DNA of 64,000 bases from assembly GCF_000014145.1 (NCBI RefSeq), contig NC_008255.1, forward strand, positions 1,117,501 through 1,181,500, given 5' to 3'. Shown one piece after another: positions 55,297-64,000 of the stretch. The notes under the pieces were generated by a model. The model was not told the origin of the DNA. It did no database searches and saw only the letters and a program-made list of their open reading frames with translations. How positions within the stretch are numbered: position 1 is the stretch's first letter; the number at the start of each line of letters is the position of its first letter. The stretch comes from Cytophaga hutchinsonii ATCC 33406. GTDB lineage: Bacteria > Bacteroidota > Bacteroidia > Cytophagales > Cytophagaceae. The position numbers and the translations under genes were made by a program.

Positions 55297-55762
55297 AGAA
55301 TCAAGCGGCAAAAGGCACACGCATGCCCGCGCCCATATATTGTACCACCAAGGCGAAAGCCTTACTGGCCTATACTGGCTCAAGTCTTTAGCGAAGCGTG
55401 ACTGGTGCCGGGCATTTCACAGTCTTTCACTGTTTTACTCAACGTGCAGTCAAAGACTGTCAAATGATACACACCAGTCTGAAGACTGGCGCGAGAGATG
55501 TACCTTACATAACAAAGCTTGGGACAATGCCCCAAGCTTTGTTTCATATAAATCTCCGTCATACATTTTTTTGTATTAATTTAATATTTCACGCCATATC
55601 CAGATGATCGGCAGGATTTTAGTGCACATGCCGGCATAATTTTCATTTTAGTCGATAAAATAGGCTTATTCTAAGAATTTTGGATTTAATTCCGTGAATA
55701 ACTTACATAAAAGCACATTAAATTGTATTATTATGTTGGCGAAAAATTGTGCTTAAATAAGA
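55297..55762. other. Intergenic region with REP-like palindromes
   Basis: 466 bases without a gene. They hold a repeat shared with 28419-28480 (GCAGTCAAAGACTG and ACACCAGTCTGAAGACTGGCG at 55446-55493), inverted AGTCTTT words near 55382-55430, and a terminator at 55511-55543. The last 200 bases are A+T-rich and should hold the promoter of the operon at 55763, but no strong TTTG-TAnnTTTG match is seen. Confidence 0.6.
55511..55543 (+). terminator. Intrinsic terminator after gcvP
   Basis: AACAAAGCTTGGG pairs with CCCAAGCTTTGTT around a 7-base loop, followed by a short T-rich run. Confidence 0.75.
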
Positions 55763-58700
55763 ATGAAAAAGTTTTTTAAAAAGTATCTCAATAAACTTCT
55801 GGACATAGAGCAGGGAGAATTAAAGCCGGTTCTATTGTTGCTGTTCTTTTCATTTTTTTTAGGGATAAGTGTTGTAACGTACGACATTGGTTCCAGTACA
55901 ATGTTCCTGGAATTTTATGATCAGAACAGAATCTCAGAAGCCTTCTTAGTGTCAGGTTTATTAGGCGTTGTATCAACATTGATTTTCGCGTATTTTCAAA
56001 AACGTATTCCATTTTCAATCTTAGCACGCATCACACTAATATTAGTTTTAGTAACGATCATTGTTTTTACTTTTTTATTACAGCGCTTTCCCGATATTCA
56101 TAAATTACGTTATCTGGTTTTTGCCAGTCTGGGTAGTATTAATGCCTTAACATTATTGTGTTTTTACGGTATTATAGGCCGTGCATTTAATCTTAGAAAT
56201 GAAAAGCGGTTAACCGGTACCGTAGATCAGGGACAATTGTTCGCTACCGTAATTGCCTTTTTCGTTGTATTCCTTATTCCGGAATCGGTACCTGTGGTGG
56301 ATTATTTCTATTTCAGTGTGGGAGCAATGATTGTATCTTTTTCATTATACATCCTGTTTATCCGCCGCCATTCTACCGAAAAACTTCTTACGATTAATAA
56401 AGCAGAAGAACTGGAGGCGTCACCTGGTTTCAGACAGTTGTTCAGCAACAAATACATTCGGCTGCTGGCTCAGCTATCGCTGGTATCGGTTATTATTTTG
56501 CAATTCATGGAATTCTCGTTTTTCTCCGCAGGGCTTGAAGCCTATAAGGAAGTAAGTGCAGATGGCCGTGTATATGTGAATGATATTGATCTGGCAAAAT
56601 TCCTTGCCGGGTATGGTACGGTACTTACCTTGTTTAATATGATCTTTCAGCTGGTAGGTGCAGATCGTATTATCAATACCATAGGCGTAAAACTTTCACT
56701 GTTTATTCTTCCGGTTTTGCTGGGTATTTTCTCCATACTCACGGCGTTGGTAGGAGGTTTCTTCGGAGATACAAAATATGATGCCTTGCTCGGCATTAAT
56801 GAAACGTTTATCCTGTTTTTTATATTTGTTTGTTTAAGTAAGATCTTTTTACAGACGTGTATTGAATCGTTTGAAGAACCGATTTATAAAAACTTTTTCC
56901 TGCCGATCAATTCCAGGATCAGACACGATGTACAAACGAAAGTAGAAGGTGTTTTCCGTCAGTTTGCAGTTGTTGTCGCAGCAGGTTTCCTTATTCTGTT
57001 TGGGGTACTTTCTTTCAAACTGATTTACTTTAGTGTAGCACTTATTATTGCGGTGTGTATCTACACATATGTGATTGTAAAGCTATATACCGAATACCGT
57101 TCAACATTGCAGGATACACTTACGGCACAACGCGGCAGACAGGATTTTCGAGATGACAGCAATGATAAATCGGTGCAGGCTATTTTGTTGCAGGAATTGA
57201 AAACGGATAGCGGAACACGTATTATCACGACGCTTAAAATGACCGAGCGCCTTGATCCGGCATTGCTTGAAAAGTCGGTTCATCTGTATACAAACCATGC
57301 ATCAGAACGCGTGCGGAGATATGTATTCAATAAAATCGAAGAGTCTAAATTATTGTCGGCATCACATGAACTGAAGGAAATAATCCGTAAAAAAGAAATT
57401 CCGATCGAAACAAAAGCATTGGCAGAGCATGCCTTGTTAAATCTGAATGATGTTGAAAAAATGCTTACCTCGCCCGGACAGATTTTAAAACTCTCCCGCT
57501 CTAAAGATCCTGTTGATAAAGAGCTGGCGGTAAAACTGATCCGGAATAATTTTAACGAAGAAATGGCGCGCCAGCTCTTCGATTTACTCAGAGAATCTAA
57601 TCCGCGTGTACGAAAGTCTGCTTTGCTTACGGCAGGTACCATCAAGCTTACGCAATACTGGATGCTGCTGATTGAAAATTTATCGCTTCCGAGTTTTGCA
57701 AATTTTGCTTCAGCAGGATTGGAATACATTGGCGAAAAAGTTATACCTACACTTGATCTGGCGTTTTATAAAACAGGTCAAAACCTTCAGACCAAAATCC
57801 GGATCATTCAGGTATATTCAAAAATCGGCGGAGAACATGCCATTGAAGTATTGTGGAATAAGATCAATTATCCGGATCGTAAAGTCGTATCCGAAGCATT
57901 GCTTGCGCTTCGCAACCTCGCTTACATTGCTAAAGGCGATCGTGCCAGTAAGATCAAGCAGTTACTGATTCAGGAAATTGCTTTGTGCTCCTGGAAGATT
58001 GCTGCACTGGATGAAATAAAAGAACAGATAAATCCGACACCGTTGTATCAGGCATTACTGGAAGAGATTGAAGAAAATGATGAAAATATTTATATGTTGT
58101 TGTCTCTGATTTATCATCAGGGGTCTGTTAAACTGGTAGAAGAAAATATCAAAAGCCGAACGGTAGAAGGTGTACTCTATGCTATTGAATTGCTGGATGT
58201 GTTTGTGGATGATGAATTGAAACCCATGCTGGTTCCGCTTCTGGATCAGATTTCCTTGTCTGAAAAGATTCTGAAGCTTCAGGAATCTTTCCCGAGAGAG
58301 TCATACGATGAGATTACTATTTTATACCATCTCATTAACAAGGACTATAATGAGATAAACCGTTGGACAAAAGCCTGCGCGATTCATAAATTACTTTTAA
58401 TGAAAAAAGTAAAAGTAAACGATACACTTATCGCCAATCTTTTTAATCCGGATAAATTAATCCGCGAAGTTACCGCAAAGCTGATTCATACAAATGATCC
58501 GGATGCCTATCACGTGTTATGTCAACGTATTCCTGAAAGGCATAAAAAAGAACTGGATGCGTTAATCGTTTCTAGTAAGATGGTAAGCTGGAAAACGGAT
58601 ATGTTTGAAAAAGTTACGTTTCTGAAATCCATTCCTGTGTTCCTGAATATTTCCGGGGCATTACTCGCGTTGCTGGCGGATCACATTGAAGAAATGCATC

Positions 58701-59032
58701 ACAAAGCAGGAGAAGTGTTGTACAAGGATAGTCTGAATGGCGCAAACCCTGTATCAATTGTTTATTCCGGTATGATCTCCCTTTCGCACGCAGACGGATT
58801 AATAGAAGGTACTTACGGTTCTAAATATGTACTGGGAGATGAACTGATCCTGGATACAGATGTGATGAACTATACCGTAACAGCAACAGAAGATACGATC
58901 ATTTTCAAAATTGATAAGGACCGATTCTTTGATATTGTTTCCAGTCATTATGTATTATCAAGAGCAGTAATTCCTGCGCTGAATAATGAACTGGAAGAAG
59001 CATATATTAAAAACGAACTTGTAGTTAAATAA
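55763..59032 (+). CDS. Nucleotide-transporter-like membrane protein with HEAT repeats and cNMP-binding-like domain
   Basis: A 1089-residue protein. Residues about 20-440 contain some twelve membrane helices and resemble the ATP:ADP/NTP antiporter (Npt/Tlc) fold. Residues about 460-880 are alpha-helical with HEAT-like repeats (KSALLTAGTIKL, KVVSEALLALRNLAY and others). Residues about 950-1085 resemble a cyclic-nucleotide-binding beta-roll (HHKAGEVLYKDSLNG...SIVYSGMISL...YVLGDELILD). It heads an operon with the TIR and nSTAND genes (12-base gap). It may transport or sense nucleotides at the inner membrane. The assignment of the membrane part is from pattern recall, not a search. Confidence 0.75.
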   Translation: MKKFFKKYLNKLLDIEQGELKPVLLLLFFSFFLGISVVTYDIGSSTMFLEFYDQNRISEAFLVSGLLGVVSTLIFAYFQKRIPFSILARITLILVLVTIIVFTFLLQRFPDIHKLRYLVFASLGSINALTLLCFYGIIGRAFNLRNEKRLTGTVDQGQLFATVIAFFVVFLIPESVPVVDYFYFSVGAMIVSFSLYILFIRRHSTEKLLTINKAEELEASPGFRQLFSNKYIRLLAQLSLVSVIILQFMEFSFFSAGLEAYKEVSADGRVYVNDIDLAKFLAGYGTVLTLFNMIFQLVGADRIINTIGVKLSLFILPVLLGIFSILTALVGGFFGDTKYDALLGINETFILFFIFVCLSKIFLQTCIESFEEPIYKNFFLPINSRIRHDVQTKVEGVFRQFAVVVAAGFLILFGVLSFKLIYFSVALIIAVCIYTYVIVKLYTEYRSTLQDTLTAQRGRQDFRDDSNDKSVQAILLQELKTDSGTRIITTLKMTERLDPALLEKSVHLYTNHASERVRRYVFNKIEESKLLSASHELKEIIRKKEIPIETKALAEHALLNLNDVEKMLTSPGQILKLSRSKDPVDKELAVKLIRNNFNEEMARQLFDLLRESNPRVRKSALLTAGTIKLTQYWMLLIENLSLPSFANFASAGLEYIGEKVIPTLDLAFYKTGQNLQTKIRIIQVYSKIGGEHAIEVLWNKINYPDRKVVSEALLALRNLAYIAKGDRASKIKQLLIQEIALCSWKIAALDEIKEQINPTPLYQALLEEIEENDENIYMLLSLIYHQGSVKLVEENIKSRTVEGVLYAIELLDVFVDDELKPMLVPLLDQISLSEKILKLQESFPRESYDEITILYHLINKDYNEINRWTKACAIHKLLLMKKVKVNDTLIANLFNPDKLIREVTAKLIHTNDPDAYHVLCQRIPERHKKELDALIVSSKMVSWKTDMFEKVTFLKSIPVFLNISGALLALLADHIEEMHHKAGEVLYKDSLNGANPVSIVYSGMISLSHADGLIEGTYGSKYVLGDELILDTDVMNYTVTATEDTIIFKIDKDRFFDIVSSHYVLSRAVIPALNNELEEAYIKNELVVK

Positions 59033-59044
59033 AAGGCAAAACAA

Positions 59045-60550
59045 ATGGCTTTTGAATACGATATATTTTTAAGTTATACCTCAACGGATAATGAAAAGCT
59101 TCCGGGCTACGATGCCGGATGGGTAGATAATTTTAAAAAGTTTCTGGATACATTGATATCACAGCTGCTGCAGCATCATCCCAAAATCATCACGAGTCAG
59201 GAAATCACAGAACCAGGATTCAATCCGTTTGAAAAAGCGTGTGTTGTTATTTATCTGGTTTCTCCGGAATACATTGTTTCCGGAGAATTTATTAAAGAAG
59301 CGGAATACTTACAGTTGTTGATGAGTAATTCCAATAACATGCGTATTGATGGTAAACTCCGGATGTTTAAAGCTGCGAAGTCGTTTGTTGAGCCGGAAAA
59401 ATACCATCCTTTATTAAGAGAACTGGTGAGTTATGATCTGTTCATGTACGACCCGTTTACAGGTTTGATGAAAGAGTTTAATGCTTTTTTCGGGCAGGAT
59501 GCGGAGAAGACTTACTGGATGCGTCTGGTAGATTTAGCTTATGATATTTATAAAGTTATTTACTACAATCAATCACAGGCGATCAATGCAGATTTTAAAC
59601 AGAAGGCTACGGAAAGTATGCCCGATGAATGTATCTATCTGGCTGAAACAGGAAATGATTTACTGATTCAGAAAAATATTATCCGCCGCGAACTTGAGCG
59701 GCACGGATACCACGTATTGCCGGATAAAGTATTGTCTCCGCATGCTGTGGATACAAATGTTACGATTAAATCGGATCTGGATAAATGTAAATTGTCTATT
59801 CATTTAATAGGTGAATCATTTATCAGTGAAGAATTTGAAAACAGAGAGGAAGTGGAATTGATGAAACTGCAGAATCAGATTGCAGTGGAATACAGCAACA
59901 CAAAGAAAAACAGTATTCCATTCAGACGTTTGATCTGGATTCCACAAGAGCTTAGTTTTGCTGATGATAAGCAGCAGCTTCTTATGGAGTCGTTTATCAG
60001 CAATACAGAATCAATGAATGGCGCTGAAGTATTGAAAATACCTATTGAAGAATTTAAGTCTTTAATAAAAAGAGAGCTTGCCACAATCAAAGATGACAAG
60101 GGATATGGCTACTTTATTCCCGAGGCAGCGTTATCATCAGATTCAGGAAAAAATATCTATGTAATTGTTGACGCAATTGATATCAGCAAATGCCAGCCGG
60201 TTGTAAATCATTTGAAACAAAATGGTTTTGATGTATTGCTGCCGATGTTTGAAGGAGATATTATGGAAGTACGTGCCAGTCACCGCAACAATTTAAATGC
60301 CTGTGATTCCTGTCTGATCTTCAGTGATCAGGTTTCGGAACAGTGGGTGAAAAGTAAAGTGCTGGATATTTTGAAGGCACCTGGTTTTGGCAGAAAGAAA
60401 AACATGATCGGTAAAGCCATTTATTTATCTACAGATAAATTAATCGATTCTGAATACTATAAAAAATATAATTTCTCAATCATTCGAAGCAATGCGGGTA
60501 ATTTTGAGAAAGAAATTATTCAACCATTTCTGAAACAAATAACGGTATAA
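59045..60550 (+). CDS. Protein with three TIR-like domains
   Basis: A 501-residue soluble protein. TIR1 (about 1-165): YDIFLSYTSTDNEK, then the SPEYIVSGEFIKEAEYL helix, where the last-but-three Glu is at the place of the catalytic Glu of TIR NADases. TIR2 (about 190-345): ECIYLAETGNDL and CKLSIHLIGESFISEEFENRE, a type I know from TIR-STAND proteins. TIR3 (about 371-490): NIYVIVDAIDISKC and ACDSCLIFSDQVSEQWVKSK...LKAPGFGRKKN, which lacks the Glu and looks structural or binding. The gene ends 4 bases before the nSTAND gene and 12 bases after the transporter gene. NADase activity is inference. Confidence 0.82.
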   Translation: MAFEYDIFLSYTSTDNEKLPGYDAGWVDNFKKFLDTLISQLLQHHPKIITSQEITEPGFNPFEKACVVIYLVSPEYIVSGEFIKEAEYLQLLMSNSNNMRIDGKLRMFKAAKSFVEPEKYHPLLRELVSYDLFMYDPFTGLMKEFNAFFGQDAEKTYWMRLVDLAYDIYKVIYYNQSQAINADFKQKATESMPDECIYLAETGNDLLIQKNIIRRELERHGYHVLPDKVLSPHAVDTNVTIKSDLDKCKLSIHLIGESFISEEFENREEVELMKLQNQIAVEYSNTKKNSIPFRRLIWIPQELSFADDKQQLLMESFISNTESMNGAEVLKIPIEEFKSLIKRELATIKDDKGYGYFIPEAALSSDSGKNIYVIVDAIDISKCQPVVNHLKQNGFDVLLPMFEGDIMEVRASHRNNLNACDSCLIFSDQVSEQWVKSKVLDILKAPGFGRKKNMIGKAIYLSTDKLIDSEYYKKYNFSIIRSNAGNFEKEIIQPFLKQITV

Positions 60551-60554
60551 GAGT

Positions 60555-63500
60555 ATGAGCGATTATATACATCTTATCGATCAGGAACATATTGGACTGA
60601 CGCGTGCAATGCAAAATCCATTTCCCGGACTGCGTGCATTCAACGTTGATGAAAGTCATTTATTCTTCGGCAGGGAAGGACAAAGTGATGAAGTATTGGA
60701 TAAACTTTCAAAAAATAAATTTGTAGGTATTATCGGTGCATCCGGCAGCGGTAAATCTTCATTTATGTTCTGCGGAGTGATTCCGATCTTATACGGAGGT
60801 TTTCTTTCTCATGTGGGCCCTAACTGGCACGTCATCACCACACGTCCGGGCGGATGTCCCATTGACAATCTTTCTGAAGCCTTGCTGCAGAAAGATGCAG
60901 AATACCTGGTAGCAGATGCAGAAGATAAGCGATTGAAAAAAACGATTACTTCTACGTTATTAAAAAGTTCGTCGCTGGGTTTAATTGAAGCGGTAAGACA
61001 ACTGCATCTGGATAATGGGAATAACGTTTTGATTGTTGCCGATCAGTTTGAAGAACTGTTCCGTTTTAAACGCACAGAAGATACCAATACCACCAATGAA
61101 TCCTTGGCATACATTAATTTGCTGATGGAAGCGGTTAAAGATCTGAAATCGAATATTTACGTGGTAATCACCATGCGTTCGGATTTTATTGGCGACTGTG
61201 CACAGTTTCCTGAATTGACAAAATACATCAACGAGAGTCATTACCTGATTCCTCAGATGGTTCGAGAGCAGAAGCGTCTGGCCATTGAAGGACCGGTAGC
61301 GGTAGGTGGTGCGGAGATCTCTTCCCGCCTTGTACAGCAGCTGTTAAATGATCTGGGCGATAATCCCGACCAGCTGCCGATCATTCAGCACGCGTTAATG
61401 CGTACCTGGACATTCTGGGCAGAGAATCACGAGCCCGAAGAAATTCTGGACCTGAGACATTACGAAGCAATCGGTTCCATGTCGGGTGCTTTATCTCAAC
61501 ACGCGGATGAAGCATACGATGAACTTACCGAACAGCAGAAATTTTACTGCGAGATTTTATTTAAAACATTAACAGAGAAAGGTTCTGATTCGGCTGGTAT
61601 ACGCAGGCCCACAAAACTTTCCACTATTGCGAATGTTGCCGGCTGCAGTGAAGACGATATGGCGCATATCATTGATCACTTCCGTATAGAAGGCCGTTCG
61701 TTATTAATGCCTCCGGTGCATGTTGCATTGGCTTCAGATAGCATCATTGATATTTCACATGAAAGTCTCATGCGTATCTGGACCCGGTTGAAAAAATGGG
61801 TAGAAGAAGAAGGTGAATCTGCTCAGATGTATATTCGTTTGTCTGATGCGGCATCCAGTTATCAGATCGGAAAGGCAGGTTTATGGAGGCCACCCGATTT
61901 GCAGCTTGCATTAAACTGGAAACAGAAAAACAAACCTACATTGGTTTGGGCGCAGCGCTACGACTCTGCCTTTGAGCGTGCAATGGTATTTTTGGATACA
62001 AGTAATGAGGCACATGAAGAAGAGCAGCGTTTAAAAGAACTTGCACAAAAGCAAGCTTTAAAACGTGCCCGTATCATAGCGTTGGTTCTTGGTATCTTTA
62101 CCATCATGGCGCTTGGTTCACTGGTATTCTCTATTCTGAAAACCGTTGAAGCGAACAATCAGCGGATCGAGGCAGAAAAGCAAAAAGGGATCGCGTTGAC
62201 GCAGGAAGCTGAAGCTAAAAAGCAGACCGGTATTGCTGAGCAGCAAACACTGGAAGCGCAGAGGCAGAAAGATTTTGCGGTACTTGCTGCTGAAGAAGCA
62301 AAACATCAGCAAGGTATAGCGGAGAAAAACTTTAACGAAGCACAGAAGCAGCGGAACATCGCTGTAACCTATGCTACAGAAGCAACCAAACAGCAGAAGA
62401 TCGCCGAGATGCAGCGCGAGCTTGCAGTGAAAAATGAGAAGCAGGCGAAACAGGAAAAGCAACGTGCCGATAAACTTCGTTTGCTGTCTATTGCCCAGTC
62501 TATGGCAGTGAAATCTGTGCAGATGGAAGAGGATACGATGCGCAAAGCATTACTGGCTTTTCAGGCGTATGAATTCTATAAAGAAAATGGCGGAAATGTA
62601 AACCAGCATGAAATCTATGACGGTTTGTATTATGCGCTGAAAAATCTGAAAGTAAAAGATTACAATGCCCTGCATGCACATAAAGATGCCGTGCGGTCAA
62701 TTGCATATACAGCAGATGGCAAAGGCATGTACACAGCCGGAAGTGATGGTAAGATCTTCAGCTGGGATATGACTGCTGCAAATCCGAAACCAAAGACTGT
62801 ATACAATACCAATTATGCACTCGGAGCATTGTCTTTAAGTTCGAACGGTACCATGCTTGCCAGCGGCGGAGCATCACCGAATATTCGTATGGTTAATCTT
62901 ACGAAAGAAGGTGACGCACCTTTACTATTGAAAGGCCATAAAAAAACGGTATTGTACACAGCATTTTCACCGGACAATCAAACGCTGGTATCTGCCAGTG
63001 CAGACAGTACGGTAATGATCTGGAATCTTTCTTCCGGTGTACCGATAACCGTTTACAGAGACAGACATAATATCAAAGCAGTATCGCTGCACCCGAAAGG
63101 AAGAGTAATTGCGGTCGCCAATGATAAAGGCGAAACCATGATTATCTCCCTGTATAATGAATTTACACCCTATCTGATTGATAGAGGAACGACAGCAGAC
63201 TACAGCCTGCAATACAGCCACGATGGGGAGTTTCTTGCGATTGCCAATAATTCAGGCCTGATCAAGATCATGGATGTAGAAGGCAGAAGACTGGTTGTTG
63301 CATTACCCGGACATAAGGCACGCGTGAACGAAATGAAATTCAGTAAAGATGATTCCAAACTTGCTTCTGCAAGCTTTGATGGTACCATCCGCGTATGGGA
63401 TCTTTCTGAATTGAGTGAGCAGCCGTTGATCTTAAAAGATCACACGAACTGGGTATGGTCTATGACCTTTAATGCAGAAGGCGATAAGCTGATTGCCGGC

Positions 63501-63689
63501 TGCGGTGATAACCTGATCCGGATCTGGCCGACAAGCAGCAAGATCATGGCCGATCAGATGTGCGACCTGATCAAACGAAACATGACCGGTGCGGAATGGA
63601 AACGCTATGTAGCAAAAGATGGTGTACCGTATGAATTAACCTGTCCGGCTTTACCAAGCCAGGAAACCAATATGAATACAATTTACTAA
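60555..63689 (+). CDS. Membrane-anchored nSTAND1-type NTPase with coiled coil and WD40 propeller
   Basis: A 1044-residue protein. NTPase: NPFPGLRAFNVDESHLFFGR (21-40), Walker A GASGSGKSS (61-69), Walker B VADQFEELFRF (160-170), the nSTAND1 form. One membrane helix (about 507-527). A long coiled coil rich in Gln, Lys, Glu and Ala (about 530-650). A seven-repeat WD40 region (about 705-995) that would close one seven-bladed propeller, e.g. LVSASADSTVMIWNL and LASASFDGTIRVWDL. The NTPase lies before the helix, so one side is cytoplasmic and the propeller would lie across the membrane if topology is single-pass; orientation is not certain. STAND proteins act as ligand-triggered switches. Confidence 0.87.
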   Translation: MSDYIHLIDQEHIGLTRAMQNPFPGLRAFNVDESHLFFGREGQSDEVLDKLSKNKFVGIIGASGSGKSSFMFCGVIPILYGGFLSHVGPNWHVITTRPGGCPIDNLSEALLQKDAEYLVADAEDKRLKKTITSTLLKSSSLGLIEAVRQLHLDNGNNVLIVADQFEELFRFKRTEDTNTTNESLAYINLLMEAVKDLKSNIYVVITMRSDFIGDCAQFPELTKYINESHYLIPQMVREQKRLAIEGPVAVGGAEISSRLVQQLLNDLGDNPDQLPIIQHALMRTWTFWAENHEPEEILDLRHYEAIGSMSGALSQHADEAYDELTEQQKFYCEILFKTLTEKGSDSAGIRRPTKLSTIANVAGCSEDDMAHIIDHFRIEGRSLLMPPVHVALASDSIIDISHESLMRIWTRLKKWVEEEGESAQMYIRLSDAASSYQIGKAGLWRPPDLQLALNWKQKNKPTLVWAQRYDSAFERAMVFLDTSNEAHEEEQRLKELAQKQALKRARIIALVLGIFTIMALGSLVFSILKTVEANNQRIEAEKQKGIALTQEAEAKKQTGIAEQQTLEAQRQKDFAVLAAEEAKHQQGIAEKNFNEAQKQRNIAVTYATEATKQQKIAEMQRELAVKNEKQAKQEKQRADKLRLLSIAQSMAVKSVQMEEDTMRKALLAFQAYEFYKENGGNVNQHEIYDGLYYALKNLKVKDYNALHAHKDAVRSIAYTADGKGMYTAGSDGKIFSWDMTAANPKPKTVYNTNYALGALSLSSNGTMLASGGASPNIRMVNLTKEGDAPLLLKGHKKTVLYTAFSPDNQTLVSASADSTVMIWNLSSGVPITVYRDRHNIKAVSLHPKGRVIAVANDKGETMIISLYNEFTPYLIDRGTTADYSLQYSHDGEFLAIANNSGLIKIMDVEGRRLVVALPGHKARVNEMKFSKDDSKLASASFDGTIRVWDLSELSEQPLILKDHTNWVWSMTFNAEGDKLIAGCGDNLIRIWPTSSKIMADQMCDLIKRNMTGAEWKRYVAKDGVPYELTCPALPSQETNMNTIY

Positions 63690-63695
63690 GGAGAT

Positions 63696-64000
63696 ATGCA
63701 GATGAAAAAAAGATGCACTCCATTTATTTCAGCAATCAGTTTGTTTGTTGCATGCTTCGTGACTATAAGTCTACAGGCACAGAGCAGCAGCAGCAAAGAT
63801 TCTATCATTGAGAACCGCTGTGTACAGTTGTTGCGTGATGCGGAGAAAACGTATGAAGCCGGTCGTATCAATGAAATTGAAGATATGATATTGCCTTGTA
63901 TAGAAAGCGAAGGGCTCAGCAAATTTGAAAAATTACAAGGATACAGGCTGATTATTTTATCTAAGCTGTTCGACAATCAAGATGAAGCGGCAAATGAATA
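63696..64000 (+). CDS. Exported protein of the TIR/nSTAND operon (partial)
   Basis: ATG at 63696 or 63702 follows the nSTAND gene after 6 bases with a purine-rich AAGGAG just upstream. The first 25 residues form a signal peptide (MKKRCTPFISAISLFVACFV then SLQAQ). What follows is helical (VQLLRDAEKTYEAGRINEIE), like a tetratricopeptide-type solenoid. The gene continues past the window edge. It is probably periplasmic or outer-membrane associated and part of the same system. Confidence 0.75.
   Translation, partial: MQMKKRCTPFISAISLFVACFVTISLQAQSSSSKDSIIENRCVQLLRDAEKTYEAGRINEIEDMILPCIESEGLSKFEKLQGYRLIILSKLFDNQDEAANE

Follow-up and report, generated by a model that had tools for sequence, protein, structure and literature searches.

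A conserved six-gene operon of Cytophaga hutchinsonii as a candidate envelope-spanning STAND switch

Introduction

In a published group of fusion proteins, a nucleotide transporter (NTT) domain is followed by HEAT repeats and a cyclic nucleotide-binding domain (cNBD); the part of that paper considered here calls their function unknown and mentions neither a STAND nor a TIR partner (Major et al., 2017, PMC5381601). The same three-domain order is found in the first protein (g1) of a locus in Cytophaga hutchinsonii ATCC 33406, located in a stretch of 64,000 nucleotides that was analyzed in full (hereafter, the window; contig NC_008255.1, positions 1,117,501 to 1,181,500). Unlike the fusions in the part of the paper considered, g1 belongs to a conserved operon that also encodes a TIR-fold protein (g2) and a STAND ATPase (g3), which is followed by genes for an outer-membrane barrel (g4), a lipoprotein (g5) and a giant surface protein (g6). 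Because of the gene order, the membrane-topology signals and a rule governing the length of a coiled coil, we favor a reading in which g1 to g6 form one envelope-spanning signaling switch reaching from the outer membrane to the cytoplasm, with a probability of roughly 0.55.

TonB-receptor/FecR-type transenvelope signaling also employs an outer-membrane protein whose periplasmic N-terminal domain signals inward; its inner partner is an anti-sigma factor, a place that a STAND ATPase carried by a long coil would take here. Bacterial conflict systems share STAND ATPase, WD40 and TIR parts with the locus (PMC7159879; PMC10907252), but, compared with the parts of those papers considered, the present system differs in that coil and WD40 propeller are predicted to be periplasmic, that an outer-membrane barrel serves as partner, and that most relatives have lost the catalytic Glu from the first TIR domain. 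Relatives of g1 to g4 also lie in or beside clusters for contractile injection systems (CISs) of Bacteroidota, of which AlgoCIS is one (PMC8894135; PMC12210884); however, the genome of the window has no match to a tube gene, and the module is not described in the portions of those papers considered. Among the best-ranked open-licence papers listed by the literature searches, none describes this operon.

Results and Discussion

Organization of the operon

A preliminary description, made from the window alone, had reported four open reading frames (ORFs) separated by gaps of 12, 4 and 6 bases, and the ORF list agrees with it. The source genome is a single contig of 4,433,218 bases, and the reading was extended 3′ beyond the window, as the preliminary description had proposed. 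Downstream of position 64000 lie the end of g4, the lipoprotein gene and a gene whose product carries a type IX sorting tail, so that the operon comprises six genes, g4 to g6 being completed outside the window:

55763-59032, + strand: g1, NTT-type membrane domain, HEAT-like repeats and cNMP-binding-like domain (1089 amino acids)
59045-60550, + strand: g2, three TIR-fold domains (501 amino acids)
60555-63689, + strand: g3, nSTAND1 ATPase, single transmembrane (TM) segment, heptad coil and WD40 propeller (1044 amino acids)
63696-64000 in the window and on to 64790, + strand: g4, outer-membrane 8-strand barrel with N-terminal helical domain (364 amino acids)
64780-66012, outside the window: g5, lipoprotein (410 amino acids)
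66040-70617, outside the window: g6, giant protein with type IX sorting tail (1525 amino acids)

A STAND ATPase on a coil measured in heptads

Four parts can be distinguished in g3:

60618-61865, + strand: nSTAND1 domain, residues 22-437
62076-62135, + strand: TM segment, residues ~508-527
62136-62489, + strand: coiled coil with a conserved Ala every seven residues, its length changing in sevens
62655-63539, + strand: WD40 propeller, predicted to be periplasmic

This agrees with the membrane-anchored nSTAND1 ATPase with coiled coil and WD40 repeats of the preliminary description. Pfam matches nSTAND1 (E 8.5e-95) as well as WD40, and the Walker A (GASGSGKSS) and Walker B (VADQFEE) motifs of a STAND NTPase are present. 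A TM segment occurs at the same place in all 55 operon-encoded g3 proteins examined, one of which has a second weak candidate, and the mean number of Lys plus Arg residues in these proteins falls from 6.2 before the segment to 2.6 after it. Because a single TM segment is combined with a positive-inside charge pattern, the ATPase should lie inside and the coil and WD40 propeller in the periplasm.

Coil length was taken as the spacing of two fixed anchors, which in the window protein are residues 476 and 643. The spacing is 154, 168, 175, 182, 189 or 196 residues, namely whole heptads, in 77 of 78 proteins, the exception (L057) lying on a very long branch. In a second set, taken from genomes of named species and consisting of the best 80 g3 relatives among the matches listed, the spacing is a multiple of seven in 71/75, including 161, and the exceptions are three g3 proteins from outside Bacteroidota and one on a short contig. 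At least six contigs of the second set are equal in length to contigs of the first, so that the two sets overlap. Most other spacers in g3 vary by single residues.

Conservation of the gene order

A search of the phylum for g2 gave matches in 17/395 genomes, only four of which, all of the window's order, were at E below 1e-100; a search at the level of the order was therefore used. With weak, partial matches counted, 71/390 Cytophagales had a match to g2 at E 0.001; among 59 relatives, 23 matched. The neighborhoods of 63 g2 loci in Cytophagales were read from simple ORF calls, taking in at most five ORFs of the same strand on the downstream side and two on the upstream side: g3 follows in 57, g4 in 56 and g5 in 48, g1 precedes in 50, and a gene for more than 600 amino acids follows in 39. 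Among the best 80 g3 relatives listed in the second set, a g4-family gene comes next in 68 of the 73 that have a downstream gene, g2 lies directly upstream in 53/77, and g5 follows g4 in 52/65; the relatives listed include Bacteroidales, Sediminibacterium, a Chitinophaga assembly, Acidobacteriota, a Nostocales cyanobacterium and Desulfobacter. Order and partners are thus kept across families of Cytophagales and beyond, with many gliding bacteria among the carriers, and the comparison of synteny that the preliminary description had asked for bears out its view of the genes as a single system.

In several loci a gene of the SpoIIE type stands between g1 and g2. It encodes a HAMP-SpoIIE type phosphatase of ~650-677 amino acids (L037, L043, L049, L090, L189 and L217), a label given by Pfam for L189 and by eye or position for the other five. 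In L100 and L103 a different, larger gene occupies this place. A TrkA_N protein with a sub-cut-off RyR match lies directly upstream of g2 in a Sediminibacterium locus (L231:6509-8461).

Outer-membrane and surface partners

The fourth protein had been described as exported and solenoid-like. It is not simply a solenoid: Pfam assigns it to OMP_b-brl_2 (E 6.5e-17), and its predicted structure (mean predicted local distance difference test, pLDDT, of 91) consists of five helices and an 8-strand barrel, for which OmpW, OmpA and a Legionella porin are tied as structural matches (Z ~18). It is an outer-membrane barrel that carries a helical N-terminal domain. The start of g5 is lipobox-like by a simple rule in 40 of 48 proteins. 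The g6 of this genome matches Por_Secre_tail (6.8e-8, Pfam), as expected of type IX cargo, and also PKD and Omp28 below their cut-offs. A type IX tail was seen at the end of 22 of the 23 g6 proteins read, out of 39, 11 of them confirmed by Pfam, namely the g6 of this genome and 10/10 relatives scanned.

The N-terminal domain of g4 was found in 57/154 genomes. In 31 further loci picked from these matches, g3 lay directly before it in 16 and with one gene between in two. The domain can also be carried by a larger protein, directly 3′ of g3 (L058, L121, L122, L126, L133 and L134); this is so in five of the 16 picked loci. We take the larger protein to be of the TonB-receptor type. In family f11 (L058 and L122), the variant locus has small genes, presumably STAS-like, anti-sigma-like and GNAT-like, together with g3, the larger receptor-like protein with the g4 N-terminal domain, and g1.

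The adjacency of g4, g5 and g6 and the prevalence of the type IX tail would also suit a dedicated export unit, in which g4 and g5 aid the type IX secretion or anchoring of g6 under the control of g1 to g3. This is an unlikely explanation, because a core of g1 to g4 occurs next to injection systems without g5 or g6, and also with the larger receptor-like g4.

The TIR-fold protein

Three domains had been proposed for g2, and structure comparison supports all of them:

59045-59557, + strand: TIR1, residues 1-171; best match the TIR domain of TLR2 (Z 13.0, root mean square deviation 2.0 over 124 residues)
59621-60097, + strand: domain 2, residues 193-351, TIR/DUF4062-like
60140-60547, + strand: domain 3, residues 366-501, TIR-like, with W434 in 61/61 and K438 in 58/61 orthologs

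The AlphaFold model has a mean pLDDT of 77, its whole-model predicted template modeling score being only 0.48, and as a whole it gives mixed alpha/beta matches in Foldseek. A VIA comparison separates the domains, with the TLR2 TIR for domain 1, BcmB (Z 12.6) for domain 2 and the RRS1 TIR (Z 12.5) for domain 3. Hits of similar Z are obtained with CMP hydrolases for domain 2 and, for domain 3, with a deoxyribosyltransferase, response receivers and Ras-like folds. Pfam TIR_2 and TIR are both below cut-off in the window protein; among 21 g2 members, TIR_2 is matched in 14 and DUF4062 in 12 (E 0.01). The possibility that TIR1 lacks the TIR fold, on which the preliminary description would have failed, is answered by the match to TLR2.

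The claim that only TIR1 keeps a catalytic Glu is borne out for domains 1 and 3: the Glu is present in TIR1 of the window, without Trp-Cys, and domain 3 has a Lys at the corresponding site in 58/61 orthologs. The aligned Glu of TIR1 occurs in nine of 61 orthologs (11 gaps), and a Glu two residues beyond in 30/61, which leaves some doubt about the aligned site. A wider set comprises 112 rows, with some genomes counted twice; WCxxE is found in eight of the rows, comprising all five from outside Bacteroidota, which keep SxWCxxE, and three of six with the receptor-like type of g4; the remaining 101 rows, g2 relatives from Bacteroidota, have a Glu at the aligned site in 15. A cyanobacterial g2 adjoining g3 (L242:8503-9999) keeps SEWCxxE in TIR1. 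The family-wide conservation of the Glu expected of TIR NADases is therefore not seen, and the proposal that TIR1 cleaves NAD is, on the sequences, a poorly supported model because the Glu is so seldom kept in Bacteroidota, though the window copy keeps it.

These results bear on the idea that the operon serves intracellular phage defense, with a membrane STAND protein sensing infection and the TIR protein depleting NAD. STAND and TIR parts are indeed present, the Glu is kept in the window and in the relatives outside Bacteroidota, and the displaced Glu of many orthologs makes the aligned site uncertain; yet the Glu is scarce at the aligned site in Bacteroidota, and outer-membrane and surface partners are conserved. 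The preliminary description had suggested a search against defense-system models; those of PADLOC gave no strong match for g1 to g3 (best E 0.0016), and of 21 g2 members a single one matched, weakly, g4 to g6 being outside the scan, and g2 had no match at E 1e-5 in phage and plasmid collections. With nothing strong in PADLOC and no phage or plasmid match, defense is ranked low and appears rather improbable.

The carrier-fold protein

The first protein of the operon was expected to combine a carrier with HEAT and cNMP-binding-like domains, and it does so:

55775-57127, + strand: NTT homology, residues 5-455, in which three of the four transport charges are not conserved
58697-58948, + strand: cNMP_binding domain, residues 979-1062, in which the cassette Arg is absent

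Pfam supports the cNMP_binding domain (E 2.5e-7) and places HEAT_2 under its cut-off (25 versus 27.7 bits). A profile of 23 orthologs shows the N-terminal part to be homologous to solved ADP,ATP carriers (E 8.6e-22 to 9j3n), so that the relation to nucleotide transporters, without which the preliminary description would not have held, is supported. Pfam TLC has no match in the genome of the window and exceeds its cut-off in one of 14 genomes (two g1 orthologs of G036). We take K155, E245, E385 and K527 to be the four charged residues of NTT transport. The equivalents of K155 and K527 fall in alignment gaps, that of E245 is Pro in 44/47 orthologs and Ser in the window protein, and that of E385 is still acidic in 42/47; three of the four charges that mark a transporter are thus not kept by the g1 family. 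The Arg of what we assume to be the phosphate-binding cassette for cNMP was not seen in the cNMP-binding domain of the family either. The nucleotide signal envisaged earlier is accordingly doubtful. An ordinary nucleotide uptake operon, as the homology to ADP,ATP carriers might suggest, is most improbable, given that three of the four charges are not conserved and the operon has no metabolic partners. At L055:5997-10751, an ORF of 1584 amino acids is apparently g1 joined to another part.

Link to contractile injection systems

Genes of the module lie in or beside injector genes in G449/G496, genus g7 (G008, G013, G016 and G018), G456, G491, genus g40 (G474, G531 and others) and the second copy of G022. 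Sheath, gp19 tube, gp25, spike, Baseplate_J, CIS_tube and tape measure were identified by Pfam in L099, L107 and L108, and the other injector loci were labeled by BLAST to the genes of these three; by Pfam, a tape measure gene is also near the module in Sediminibacterium and the Chitinophaga assembly. In a g3 tree made by a quick method with midpoint rooting, where L140 and others form long branches, all ten injector-linked rows belong to one clade of 14 (support 100), and the g3 of the window lies outside it. CIS_tube is matched in 14/14 genomes of this clade and in 7/51 other g3 genomes (Fisher 1.9e-9, related genomes not being independent); three of these seven (G485, G520 and G589) have g4 and g1 in the injector locus. 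Among the 59 relatives, co-occurrence of g2 and CIS_tube is not striking (both in 7, g2 in 23, CIS_tube in 15). It is the g3 clade and the gene neighborhoods that reveal the link. Since CIS_tube is present with no g1 or g2 match in the small genomes of family f21 (G039 and G054), not all injectors need the module; in the stretches examined, no module genes lie beside the CIS clusters of G007, G009, G029 and G048.

The presence of g3, g4 and g1 inside or beside injector clusters of several families raises the question of whether the operon is a former part of such a system that has lost its injector. This is quite improbable, because the injector-linked g3 proteins form one clade with the window outside it (by the quick method and midpoint root only) and the genome of the window has no CIS_tube or gp19 tube match, sheath not having been searched for there.

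On contig C71 of G530, a g4-type gene (L117) and a CIS_tube match are ~15 kb apart. In L099, L108 and L138, the injector genes are repeatedly accompanied by a gene for a GH18-domain protein (labeled by Pfam in L108 and by BLAST elsewhere) and one for a small protein that looks exported.

Gain, loss and divergence

A genome of the same genus (G001) lacks g1 and g2; in it, the two genes found 3′ of the operon in the genome of the window come ~220 bases after gcvP. At this one site the operon is therefore either there or missing as a whole, a behavior that would also suit phage defense; only matches of 11 bases or less were found between its flanking DNA and the empty site of G001. Between G000 and G002, identity falls from the inside of the cell to the outside, from g1 to g6 being 86, 85, 83, 76, 55 and 47 percent. 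This fall is seen in many of 26 pairs, not all; in some of the exceptions, the identity of g4 or g5 equals that of g2, and in some g6 is above g5. In five comparisons involving second copies, g1, g2 and, where it was measured, g3 are nearer to the like-type copy than to the copy in the same genome.

A proposed envelope-spanning switch

The favored reading of one envelope-spanning switch builds on the observed homologies, gene order, topology signals, coil quantization and g3-g4 adjacency. Signaling, as we infer its direction, contacts and output, would begin at the surface, where g6 as giant type IX cargo, the g5 lipoprotein and the g4 barrel may detect contact or some ligand. The helical domain of g4, lying in the periplasm, would hand its state to the WD40 propeller of g3, which a rigid coil in heptad register probably holds away from the inner membrane, and the single TM segment would transmit this state to switch the nSTAND1 ATPase in the cytoplasm. 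With its TIR folds, g2 may act as an assembly scaffold that relays the state, and g1, with its carrier fold, HEAT-like repeats and cNBD-like domain, may be the partner in the inner membrane. The output might come in some lineages from an added SpoIIE-type phosphatase; in others the module may be wired to a CIS. The envelope-sensing STAND switch suggested in the preliminary description is thereby supported, through the topology signals and the conserved outer-membrane partner.

Several observations weigh against this reading. The topology of g3 is based on hydropathy and charge. Nine loci of family f18 have no g1 beside g2, one such genome (G050) carrying g1 elsewhere; several g3-g4 loci lack g2, three g2 genes (L044, L085 and L088) lack g3, and 13 of the 31 loci picked for the g4 N-terminal domain have no g3 there. 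The g4 of the second copy in G022 is slightly nearer to the copy in the same genome (39 versus 37 percent), and that of G456 ties. Furthermore, the inside-to-outside gradient of identity is not proof of sensing, because rapid divergence is in any case usual for barrels and giant surface proteins.

It is possible, as a more tentative proposal, that the operon represents an undescribed class of envelope-spanning machines, in which a STAND ATPase reads the outer membrane through a heptad-quantized periplasmic coil and serves as a general trigger platform, coupled by lineage to giant surface proteins, to phosphatase signaling, or to the firing or docking of CISs. If so, NLR-like STAND switches of bacteria would be more than internal alarms and could read the cell surface across two membranes, and candidate parts could be named for the cue that times the docking or firing of CISs in Bacteroidota. 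Thanks to the heptad rule and the pairing of g3 with g4, direct tests are easy.

Flanks of the operon

A promoter scan gave 18 sites against a shuffle mean of 24.4, that is, no excess over shuffles. Two terminator-like elements, both read by eye, border the operon:

55511-55544, strand unassigned: inverted repeat with T tail, terminator-like, between gcvP and g1
70645-70679, outside the window: terminator-like hairpin, 3′ of g6

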